A stretch of 64,000 nucleotides of DNA, from NCBI RefSeq assembly GCF_000741525.1, contig NZ_JGYP01000001.1:514368-578367 (forward strand), in the 5' to 3' direction. Numbering within the stretch: the stretch's first letter is position 1; the number at the start of each line of letters is the position of its first letter. The notes beneath the pieces are model-generated. The model was not told the origin of the DNA. It was given only the letters and a program-made list of their open reading frames with translations, and did not search any database. This DNA comes from Bifidobacterium bohemicum DSM 22767. Its GTDB lineage: Bacteria; Actinomycetota; Actinomycetes; Actinomycetales; Bifidobacteriaceae. Both the position numbers and the translations under genes were made by a program. This document shows positions 35,852 to 45,896 of this stretch, piece by piece.

Positions 35852-36832
35852 ATGCTCATTCGACTGGAAAAGGTACTGCTTAGGGATATGCAGCGCGTCG
35901 TCGATGGACTGCTCCATGAGGAAACCGACCTTACCCCATATCAGCGGGAGTATCACGACCTTCTGGCCAATCACGGCAAAATGCTTCGCTCCTCCCTGTT
36001 GCTGCTCTTCTCATACGCCGGTGGCGCCGGCACCGAACCGACGCCGCAGCGAGTCATCGACGGAGCCAAAGCCATAGAACTCCTTCATTTGGCGACCTTG
36101 GTGCATGACGATGTTCTGGACAACGCGCCAATCCGCCGCAACAAGCCGACCATCAACACGACCCGCGGCAACAAGACCGCAATCTACCTGGGTGACCTCA
36201 TTCTTTCCCGCTATATGGAAGTCATAGCGCAGATTTCGCCCAACAACGCCTTCATGATCAACCAGGCTCGCACCGTCGGGGAAATCGTTTCCGGAGACCT
36301 CTTGCAGGAATCCGCACGCCACGACACGAAGGCCGACAAAGGTCATTATGAACAGGCCATCGACGGCAAAACCGCAGCGCTTTTCCGCCTTGCCTGCACC
36401 ACCGGACTTGAGCTCTCCGCAGCCGAAACGGGAACCGATACCCCCCGGTCAATGTTGGAGCAAGCGAAAACTTTCGGCACACAGCTGGGACAGGCTTTCC
36501 AAATCGCGGACGACGTGACGGACTTCGAGGTCAACCGTGATGCCGGCAAGCCAAAACTCGAAGACATCCGGGAAGGCATCTATACGTTGCCGGTGATCCT
36601 GGCCCTCGAGGCCGATCCTGGTTTCGAATCGATTCTCGACCTCGGCGACCCCCACAGAACGCTCGACTATCTTGAAGCCAACCCGCAGTATATCCAAGCC
36701 TCAAAAGACGAGGCCCGCAGGCATGCCAAAGCAGCGAAGGACGCCCTGAGCGAGGAATCATGTCCGACCATCGACAGGACAGTGCGCGCGCTGATTGATA
36801 AGACCGTCGATAAATTCGCATCGACCATCTGA
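35852..36832 (+). CDS. Polyprenyl diphosphate synthase (long-chain trans type)
   Basis: 326-residue prenyl chain elongase adding isopentenyl units to an allylic diphosphate. The first Asp-rich motif HDDVLDN (D86, D87, D90) is followed by RR, and the second is IADDVTD (D220, D221, D224). The residues before the first motif are HLATLVH, without bulky aromatics, suggesting a longer (C30-C40) product. It resembles the HepT-type component of lactobacilli that makes the menaquinone side chain. That fits the cytochrome bd and NADH dehydrogenase genes 2-9 kb away; the quinone assignment is inference. GAGAGGTAAGG precedes the ATG. Confidence 0.88.
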   Translation: MLIRLEKVLLRDMQRVVDGLLHEETDLTPYQREYHDLLANHGKMLRSSLLLLFSYAGGAGTEPTPQRVIDGAKAIELLHLATLVHDDVLDNAPIRRNKPTINTTRGNKTAIYLGDLILSRYMEVIAQISPNNAFMINQARTVGEIVSGDLLQESARHDTKADKGHYEQAIDGKTAALFRLACTTGLELSAAETGTDTPRSMLEQAKTFGTQLGQAFQIADDVTDFEVNRDAGKPKLEDIREGIYTLPVILALEADPGFESILDLGDPHRTLDYLEANPQYIQASKDEARRHAKAAKDALSEESCPTIDRTVRALIDKTVDKFASTI

Positions 36833-37113
36833 GGAGGCCAGGACCTCGCGCCACTCGGCAAAAATCATCGAAACGGTATTCATCGCCAAGACCATGAGGT
36901 GCGAGCACAGCGGCTTCGGATAATGTTCAGTCCACCTTGCCCTTCGCACTCGGCGTGGACAACGAGAGTTCGCTTCGGACCATGCTCCGAATAATCCGCA
37001 GAAGCATCGCGAAAACGAAAAGCAAACGCTGACATGTTACTCGGCGTGTTGGAACCGATAGTGCATTACGATTATTTAGGTCACTCTGCAAACATCTACC
37101 ATTGGAGGACAAC

Positions 37114-37884
37114 ATGACCAAAGTCGCAATGGTGACTGGCGGTGCGCAAGGTATCGGAGAGGCCATCTCAAGGCGTCTGGCCGCCGATGGATTCGCCGTG
37201 GCCGTAGCCGACCTGAACGAGGACAAGGCCAGCCAAGTGGCCAACGACATCGAACGGTCCGGCGGAAAAGCCATGGCCGTCACGCTCGACGTTGCCGACC
37301 AGCAGGCGTTCTCGGATGCCGTGGACAAGGTCGCGGACCATTTCGGAGGCTTTGACGTGATCGTCAACAACGCGGGCCTTGGACCCACAACCCCTATCGA
37401 GAGCATCACCCCGGAACTGTTCGACAAGGTCGTCCACGTCAACGTTGCGGGCACCATCTGGGGTATTCAGGCGGCAGTGCGCAAGTTCCGTGAGAACGGC
37501 ACCAAAGGCAAAATCATCAACGCGACCAGCCAGGCCGGCGTGGTGGGCAACCCGAACCTGATGCTGTACTGCTCCACCAAATTCGCCATCCGCGGCATCA
37601 CGCAGGTGGCTGCGCGTGACCTCGCAGGCGAGGGCATCACCGCCAATGCCTACGCGCCCGGCATCGTCAAGACCCCGATGATGATGGACATCGCTCATAA
37701 CGTCGGCAAGAACGCCGGCAAGAGTGACGAATGGGGCATGTCAACATTCTCCAAGGACATTGCCTTGGGCCGTCTTTCCGAGCCGGAGGACGTTGCCGCG
37801 GCAGTCTCGTTCCTGGCAGGCCCGGATTCCGATTACATCACCGGACAAACGCTGATCGTCGATGGCGGCATGCAGTTCCAGTAA
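37114..37884 (+). CDS. Diacetyl/acetoin reductase (SDR, BudC/ButA-like)
   Basis: Short-chain dehydrogenase of 256 residues. The cofactor motif TGGAQGIG (8-15), an Asp after beta-2 favouring NAD, NNAG (85-88) and catalytic S139, Y152, K156 are all present. The C-terminal GLGPTTPIE...MQFQ pattern and overall sequence match (S)-acetoin-forming diacetyl reductases/2,3-butanediol dehydrogenases. It would oxidise NADH while reducing diacetyl to acetoin or acetoin to butanediol. GGAGG lies 5 bases before the ATG at 37114, so the four-codon upstream extension is rejected. Single gene followed by a long perfect hairpin. Confidence 0.9.
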
Positions 37885-44679: not shown

Positions 44680-44720
44680 TACTTTTCCTCTCTATTGTAA
44701 TATTCGCAACCCTGAAGGGA

Positions 44721-45896
44721 TCACTTGCTTTCCAGCATAGTCTTGAGATTAGCCAACTTGAGCACCGCCTCATCGGCGATAAACACCTTAGCGATGGCCG
44801 CAAGAACGCCCTTGAGCTTCCAATGGCCGAACACCTCGACCATGGCGATGCCCGCGTTGGGCCCCAGCGAGCACACGGTCCCCAACGGTTTGAAAACAAA
44901 TTTCCTGGTAGGTTGCCCATTGATGCTCGCCACGACATTGGCGGCCGCGGTGTCAGCCTGCGCGATGGAGATCTGCGCAGTAGTGGGATACAAACGCCCG
45001 TTGTTGGGATTGGGCACTGCGGAAACGTCCCCGATGAGGAATTCCTCGGGATGGCCTTCGATCGACAGATCGTCTTTGACGACCACGCGATTCCGCTTCT
45101 GATCATAGTCCGAATCGCCGATGATATGACTGCCCTTGACGCCGGTGGTCCAAATAATCGTATTGGCCGTATACGCGGTGTCGTTGCTCATCACGGCATT
45201 GGGTGTGACTTCCGTGATTGGCGTGTTCGTATGGAAGACGACACCACGCTTCTCAAGATATCGGACACCCCAATTGGACAGTTTCTGATCGAACATCGGC
45301 AGGATTCTAGGAGCCGCCTCGATGCAGTCGAGCCTGACCTTGTCCATAGGGAAACCGTATTCCTTGGCGAGCCTAGGCAGCCTGAAGGCAAGCTCACCCA
45401 AGTATTCGATACTGGTAAAACCGGCCCCACAGACCACCACGTGCAGATCGTTCTCATCATGGGAGGTGCGATAGCGCTTGAAAGCCGCTTCCAGATGGTC
45501 GCGAGCGGCCTCGGCGGTGTTCACGTCGACAATCGACAGACCGTTCTCCTCCGCGCCTTTGATGCCGAAGGTCTCGGACTCAAAACCGAGGCAGTTGACC
45601 AGGTAATCGTAATTGATCGGACCACCGTTTTTCAGATCGACCCGATTGGCCTTCTGGTCGATGTGCGTGACTTCGTCAATTATGACCTTGACGTTCTTGG
45701 GCACCACCTGACGCACATCGAAGGTGATGTCGGAGACCTCGCGCGTACCAGCGGCCAACTGGTGCAATTGGGTGGATTCGTAGTGGTAAGGATTCTTATT
45801 TACCAGCACGATCTCGGCATCAAGCTTGGCATGAGCCAGTTTCTTGATCGCCCGCATTCCCGCGTAGCCGCCACCGAGAACCACAATCTTTTTCAT
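44721..45896 (-). CDS. ndh: Type II NADH dehydrogenase (NDH-2)
   Basis: Single-subunit, non-proton-pumping NADH:quinone oxidoreductase (391 residues) using FAD. The FAD-binding GGGYAG is at 8-13 and the second nucleotide fold is VVCGAGFTSIEYLGELA. The IIWTTGVKGS segment, FLIGDVSAVPN and a quinone-site stretch YPTTAQISIAQ follow. The C-terminus is amphipathic, suited to membrane-surface attachment. ATG at 45896 follows AAGAAGGGATG; a start six codons upstream would bury that site. Placed first in the cyd operon, it would supply electrons to menaquinol and then to cytochrome bd. Confidence 0.9.
   Translation of the reverse strand: MKKIVVLGGGYAGMRAIKKLAHAKLDAEIVLVNKNPYHYESTQLHQLAAGTREVSDITFDVRQVVPKNVKVIIDEVTHIDQKANRVDLKNGGPINYDYLVNCLGFESETFGIKGAEENGLSIVDVNTAEAARDHLEAAFKRYRTSHDENDLHVVVCGAGFTSIEYLGELAFRLPRLAKEYGFPMDKVRLDCIEAAPRILPMFDQKLSNWGVRYLEKRGVVFHTNTPITEVTPNAVMSNDTAYTANTIIWTTGVKGSHIIGDSDYDQKRNRVVVKDDLSIEGHPEEFLIGDVSAVPNPNNGRLYPTTAQISIAQADTAAANVVASINGQPTRKFVFKPLGTVCSLGPNAGIAMVEVFGHWKLKGVLAAIAKVFIADEAVLKLANLKTMLESK

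Follow-up and report, generated by a model that had tools for sequence, protein, structure and literature searches.

Aerobic electron-transport chains ending in cytochrome bd have already been published for bee bifidobacteria (PMC3447821, PMC4319941, and PMC9004370), and PMC3447821 treats respiration as an old feature of the genus that was lost in mammal-derived species. Here we describe a locus of this kind in a stretch of 64,000 nucleotides from Bifidobacterium bohemicum DSM 22767 (the window; contig NZ_JGYP01000001.1, positions 514,368 to 578,367), in which a row of five genes, ndh-cydA-cydB-cydD-cydC, lies near a gene for a long-chain polyprenyl diphosphate synthase (PDPS). The respiratory chain itself is of a known kind; its origin and cofactor economy are less ordinary. 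We consider it likely, at a rough probability of three in four, that the locus encodes a short chain running from NADH via a type II NADH:quinone oxidoreductase (NDH-2) and a quinone, likely demethylmenaquinone, to cytochrome bd and O2 and that its CydA and CydC are of a Lactobacillaceae type obtained by an old lateral transfer. In the literature searched, mostly titles and the openings of abstracts, we found no statement that the chain was acquired laterally from lactic acid bacteria.

Like the set from B. asteroides PRL2011 and other bee bifidobacteria, B. bohemicum combines ndh, cydA, cydB, cydC, and cydD with a menA gene elsewhere in the genome of a bee-type Bifidobacterium. However, the asteroides-type loci (L002 and L003) have the order ndh-cydBDC-cydA, in contrast to ndh-cydABDC in B. 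bohemicum, and the CydA proteins are 61% identical. The cydABDC order is shared with Lactobacillaceae (Schleiferilactobacillus, Oenococcus, and Lactiplantibacillus), and in the lactobacilli compared PDPS is often, and ndh sometimes, encoded nearby; the host here, in contrast, is an actinobacterium, in whose genome no MenG was found. Galliscardovia ingluviei (L019), also a member of the Bifidobacteriaceae, has cydABDC with PDPS and ndh, but its CydA is 55% identical to that of B. bohemicum and its genes are of an Enterococcus/Streptococcus type. Actinobacterial cytochrome bd, to which we take the solved chains 7nkz, 7d5i, and 8b4o to belong, is of the same family, and these are among the best-scoring solved CydA chains, yet it is not nearest in trees, and the topology test described below speaks against it.

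Family assignments were based on NCBIfam models with curated cutoffs and on Pfam. The five genes are on the minus strand, and every frame is open and full length, in keeping with the description in an earlier note on this DNA of intact genes that overlap or are closely spaced. The row begins with ndh (44721..45896; Pyr_redox_2, 127 bits; 304 bits to the Staphylococcus aureus-type NDH-2 5na1), the longest frame of which starts at 45914; the later in-frame ATG at 45896 yields a protein of 391 aa, the same length as the identical cluster protein P0121. After a spacer of 41 bases follows cydA (43216..44679; subunit I; PF01654, 520 bits over 418 of 418 model positions), which overlaps by 4 bases cydB (42125..43219; subunit II; TIGR00203, 264 bits against a cutoff of 117; PF02322, 301 bits). 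The next gene, cydD (39990..41906; TIGR02857, 542 bits, cutoff 435), is separated from cydB by 218 bases, or by 290 if it starts at a GTG at 41832-41834. This GTG, read by eye, is likely the true start, with the TIGR02857 match setting in at residue 37 of the frame as listed. An overlap of 20 bases leads into cydC (38180..40009; TIGR02868, 467 bits, cutoff 329), the subunit of the cytochrome bd assembly ABC transporter partnered by cydD. Beyond it on the plus strand, and as the earlier note had said beside the chain, lies the PDPS gene (35852..36832; PF00348, 175 bits), predicted to make the quinone tail; 16 NCBIfam models matched this protein, none at its cutoff, a matter that concerns chain length.

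Alignments to solved structures point to the same functions. NDH-2 aligns nearly end to end (residues 8-390, E of 1e-89) with the bacterial enzyme 5na1. CydA residues H18, E98, E106, H184, K254, E259, M349, and E403 align with residues of the Escherichia coli chain 6rko, presumably H19, E99, E107, H186, K252, E257, M393, and E445, which we take to serve there as heme ligands and quinol-site residues. The protein accordingly carries two heme b-type histidines, the methionine ligand, and the quinol-site Lys and Glu, as the earlier note had held. CydD and CydC form a heterodimeric ABC pair, both above their curated cutoffs. On the basis of these features, the locus is predicted to encode a short aerobic electron-transport chain. 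The altered quinone motif AQISIAQ was rejected as a special mark of this NDH-2, its position being very variable, with 11 of the 120 listed homologs having no match to the pattern.

In a careful CydA tree of 38 rows, the 13 bifidobacterial rows, including a 92%-identical metagenome protein and one Bombiscardovia, form one clade (100/98) that joins Schleiferilactobacillus and one other row (99/98) and then Oenococcus (97/91), all inside Lactobacillaceae; a quick tree of 72 rows agrees. The CydC tree, which has a Bacillales root and drew long-branch warnings, shows the same nesting: the bifidobacterial rows, with four further rows lying among them, have Schleiferilactobacillus perolens and two other rows as their sister group. 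Together, the nesting of CydA and CydC within Lactobacillaceae makes an old lateral transfer likely. In Schleiferilactobacillus, the records of cydA and ndh sit on equally sized contigs, which does no more than suggest that the two genes are linked there. CydB and CydD, treed only within a joined operon alignment, are 71-73% and 61-71% identical, respectively, to the other bifidobacterial copies compared (Galliscardovia apart) and 38-54% and 39-46% identical to the Bacillota copies compared. The CydA of Galliscardovia ingluviei is instead sister to that of Streptococcus didelphis within Enterococcus-type sequences (100/99), and its CydC behaves likewise; judged by these trees, it is a separate, independent import.

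Within the genus, CydA occurs in 16 of 73 genomes (B. bohemicum and 15 of the 72 others) and, in a wider set, in 25 of 112, one of them a partial match, bearing out the expectation of a minority distribution. The restriction to lineages such as insect-associated ones was borne out in part. The nearest named relatives of the CydA are bee bifidobacteria (B. bombi, B. commune, and ESL strains, with identities of 75-78%, next to the metagenome protein at 92%), as are those of Ndh and CydC, but the chain also extends beyond insects to B. mongoliense and B. aquikefiri(cola) among the named matches and to B. subtile (PMC9004370). In eleven genomes, all cydA bearing, LysS shares 85-89% identity with that of B. 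bohemicum; full-length LysS matches in cyd-less genus genomes lie at 75-83%, and those in G010 and G061, which are cyd bearing, at 78-79%. In a 44-row LysS tree, with 41 rows from the genus (14 cyd bearing and 27 of the 57 cyd less; G014 and G018, in which LysS is in pieces, were omitted), the cyd state needs two changes, or two to four across bootstrap trees. A tree of joined CydA, CydB, CydD, and CydC with 19 rows separates 17 bifidobacterial rows from two lactobacilli at 100/100, its groups resemble the LysS groups, and B. bohemicum stands beside the bee clade with support of 80/73. Because the broad groupings of the operon and LysS trees coincide, the transfer would be old, with the genes apparently passed down along with the species from then on; the data do not distinguish one early gain with losses from two gains. 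Of the transfer for which the earlier note had proposed trees as a check, a recent event into this species is thus unsupported, and an old one is supported.

The quinone would depend in part on genes outside the locus. A UbiA-family gene was found in all 119 genomes searched, and that of B. bohemicum (G000:C2:396521-397573; 350 aa), which adjoins lysS, scores 188 bits against a MenA cutoff of 102. Of ten more lysS regions, eight, from six cyd-less and two cyd-bearing genomes, hold a MenA homolog above the cutoff, and those of G008 and G013 do not; with identity checked in nine genomes, MenA is, by sequence, widespread in the genus. The upstream step searched for, MenD, had no match above the cutoff in B. 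bohemicum (2 of 73 genus genomes versus 43 of 46 from the same order; MenD was the only upstream men gene searched). MenG was not found in B. bohemicum, matches in the genus reaching at most 46 bits versus at least 185 bits in 42 of the 46 same-order genomes. Because MenA is present, the chain is predicted to require the precursor 1,4-dihydroxy-2-naphthoate (DHNA) and not finished menaquinone, and because no MenG was found, the predicted product is demethylmenaquinone, in contrast to L. plantarum, which contains menaquinone. In the latter organism, whose quinone pathway is otherwise missing the genes needed to complete it, menaquinone-6 and menaquinone-7 are present after growth with DHNA (PMC10746273). 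The likeness drawn in the earlier note to lactobacilli in need of supplied heme and menaquinone therefore holds for heme and shifts to DHNA on the quinone side; similarly, the locus itself shows no menA or heme synthesis gene, but the genome-wide search recovered MenA and did not recover ferrochelatase or HemQ.

The distinguishing piece of the quinone supply, by sequence comparison, is the PDPS of the locus. Its close homologs (E of 3e-80 or lower; 51-63% identity in 14 relatives) occur in 15 of the 16 cyd-bearing genus genomes, including B. bohemicum, and in none of the 57 cyd-less ones, where the best match is 1e-16. The exception is G018, which is 82% complete, and in G027 the gene lies about 0.8 Mb from cydA. 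As a separate matter, the MenA genes above the cutoff near lysS (L123:8522-9574, L177-L181, L183, L185, and L186) include six from cyd-less bifidobacteria. DHNA reportedly has an effect on the growth of bifidobacteria.

On the heme side, neither ferrochelatase (PF00762) nor HemQ (PF06778) was found in the B. bohemicum genome (2.05 Mb, 5 contigs, 96% complete), and catalase was not found either, a difference from the B. asteroides/bee set; earlier heme genes were not part of the search. As a positive control, the ferrochelatase model matched in 45 and HemQ in 42 of the 46 same-order genomes. Full-length hemH and hemQ are present in 5 of the 72 other genus genomes (G002, G024, G047, G054, and G057), with the order hemQ-major facilitator superfamily transporter-hemH in G024, and a sixth, G049, has hemQ with an internal stop and a hemH fragment below the cutoff; all six are cyd bearing. 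The absence in B. bohemicum is probably no assembly gap, because neither gene was found in the single-contig cyd-bearing genomes G004, G014, and G028 (94-99% complete). Catalase occurs in 10 of the 72 genomes, all cyd bearing, and 5 of the 10 have no intact hemH and hemQ, among them G014, in which the catalase gene is in two frames. This persistence of a heme catalase without intact hemH and hemQ suggests heme import in this cyd-bearing clade. Fe/Mn superoxide dismutase (PF02777) was not found in the B. bohemicum genome, and of the 15 other genus genomes with cyd only 2 have it, whereas PMC9004370 reported superoxide dismutase in its chain-bearing strains. A further observation concerns three cyd-bearing genomes that have three ferrochelatase-family genes in tandem a few kilobases from hemQ (G002:C5:37041-40077, G047:C1:1924803-1927817, and G057:C1:1759168-1762047).

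These components can be assembled into a mechanism in which NDH-2 would pass electrons from NADH to a quinone whose side chain is made by the PDPS of the locus, the resident MenA joining this tail to DHNA released by neighbors to give demethylmenaquinone. Cytochrome bd, completed by CydDC and imported heme, would oxidize the quinol and reduce O2 to water; the gain would lie in NADH reoxidation, O2 removal, and a modest proton gradient. With the two late heme genes not found and the quinone pathway partial, the chain would likely run only on heme and a quinone precursor supplied by neighbors. In a fuller version, to which we give slightly better than even odds, an ancestor imported a lactic acid bacterial operon with ndh, cydABDC, and the quinone-tail synthase and connected it to a MenA already present in the genus for some other purpose, the chain running on the heme and DHNA of neighbors, and Galliscardovia separately acquired an Enterococcus/Streptococcus-type operon. 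If this holds, the published ancestral respiration would give way to a testable history of import from lactic acid bacteria. Lactic acid bacteria and these bifidobacteria occur together in bee guts and fermented foods. A lack of heme and DHNA could also account for the several cyd-bearing bifidobacteria that showed no O2 uptake in the laboratory; PMC9004370 has already proposed a missing heme synthase as a possible reason for nonconsuming strains.

The principal rival account of the origin is the one published for B. asteroides (PMC3447821), namely, ancestral respiration with vertical descent: the forebear of the bifidobacteria would have respired like other actinobacteria, and most lineages would have lost the chain. 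The presence of CydA in 46 of 46 same-order genomes and the broad agreement of the genes with LysS inside the genus fit such a history, as do 7nkz and 7d5i, the top-scoring pair of solved CydA chains, which we take to be mycobacterial, in a list holding no chain that we recognize as from a lactobacillus. Nevertheless, the same-order CydA proteins stand apart from Bifidobacterium in both trees (nine rows in the quick tree, where they form their own distant clade, and six in the careful one), and the window CydA is 35-41% identical to 25 same-order copies versus 51-67% to lactobacilli among the matches listed. Constraining the bifidobacterial rows to group with the six same-order actinobacteria lowered the log-likelihood by 105 and was rejected with the rows used (approximately unbiased test, P = 4e-46; the test was run after inspection of the quick tree, the vertical hypothesis itself being already published). 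We therefore regard vertical descent as very improbable.

Other accounts grant the genes and differ on their use. That the oxidase is mainly an O2 scavenger protecting a fermenter, with little energy gain, is a tenable view that we hold at clearly less than even odds: it draws on the apparent absence of catalase and Fe/Mn superoxide dismutase from B. bohemicum, on the established fact that NDH-2 enzymes do not pump protons, and on the low O2 uptake published for B. asteroides (PMC3447821). It is, however, compatible with the respiratory chain preferred here, the presence of PDPS and MenA still points to a quinone in the membrane, and energy yield cannot be read from sequence. The relatives' loci bear on the unlikely proposal that the operon is a nonfunctional relic with its cofactors missing. 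It would explain why ferrochelatase and HemQ were not found in B. bohemicum and are broken in the cyd-bearing G049, but the five genes are open with their ligand residues kept, all five recur as open frames, at 75% length or more, in 14 of the 15 same-genus cyd-bearing genomes (G018 not included), and heme catalase genes persist in the five relatives noted above. Least credible among these is a role of the quinone and NDH-2 in extracellular electron transfer instead of O2 reduction, which we think highly unlikely. The L. plantarum route does use Ndh2 and supplied quinones (PMC10746273), but cydABDC is in the same gene row as ndh, and an FMN_bind protein, considered as a partner of the B. bohemicum quinone and discarded, was not found in this genome or in 13 of the 16 cyd-bearing genus genomes, as opposed to 47 of the 57 cyd-less genomes that have one.

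Several points count against the chain and the transfer as we read them. MenA is also present in cyd-less relatives and is therefore not specific to a respiratory chain. Neither the CydC nor the Ndh tree includes same-order rows or any other actinobacteria from beyond the family, which leaves CydA as the one direct test of vertical descent. The Ndh tree groups Bifidobacterium with Schleiferilactobacillus, Oenococcus, Furfurilactobacillus, and one Paraburkholderia in a branching order that is not settled and with an outgroup that is not one clade. By identity, the window CydA stands as near to Companilactobacillus (61-62%) as to the asteroides group (61%), the nesting leaves room for a later transfer from Bifidobacterium to Schleiferilactobacillus, and the operon tree puts G053 outside the cluster in which LysS places it. 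With the genome 96% complete, an absence may be a gap; no heme or DHNA importer was identified, heme importers not having been searched for. Finally, PMC3447821 saw O2 uptake in B. asteroides PRL2011 and none in four cyd-bearing relatives.

Apart from these questions, the skew of FMN_bind between cyd-less and cyd-bearing genus genomes (47 of 57 versus 3 of 16; Fisher P = 4e-6, uncorrected for kinship) possibly reflects another electron outlet in the cyd-less species; its loci in three of these (L205, L206, and L207) are mixed when viewed by eye. Among 14 relatives' loci, 8 have two tandem ndh genes upstream of cydA (L124, L125, L128, L130, L131, L132, L135, and L136), where B. bohemicum has one.

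The earlier note was also right in placing an (S)-acetoin-forming diacetyl reductase (37102..37884, plus strand; NF006394, 426 bits, cutoff 381) beside the chain. It was rejected as a chain member because its position relative to PDPS differs between B. bohemicum and five relatives: in these 5 of the 14 relatives' 19.5-kb loci it lies beyond MgtC from PDPS, and it was not seen within the other 9. It is probably a neighbor and not part of the chain. Upstream of ndh, the intergenic region at 45897..46317 is, by position only, the presumed promoter region. A comparison of such regions from 16 relatives' loci and the window gave no motif common to all; the most widely shared 10-mer occurs in 7 of the 17 regions, and those of a TTTGTGAAATATGTCATATT-like stretch each occur in 6 of them, sharing that is too low for a regulator to be claimed. 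A scan for sigma-70-like promoters gave 2 sites versus a shuffle mean of 4.2, with none listed inside 45897..46317. An inverted-repeat stretch, CGATTTACGTAAAACG (minus strand; window 46194-46209), precedes ndh, follows a LacI-type regulator gene, and is a possible operator. Elsewhere on the minus strand, two overlapping frames at 47638-48312 and 48305-50731 seem, by eye, to be the pieces of a split fusion between a sugar-phosphorylase-like protein and a phosphoglucomutase-like domain.

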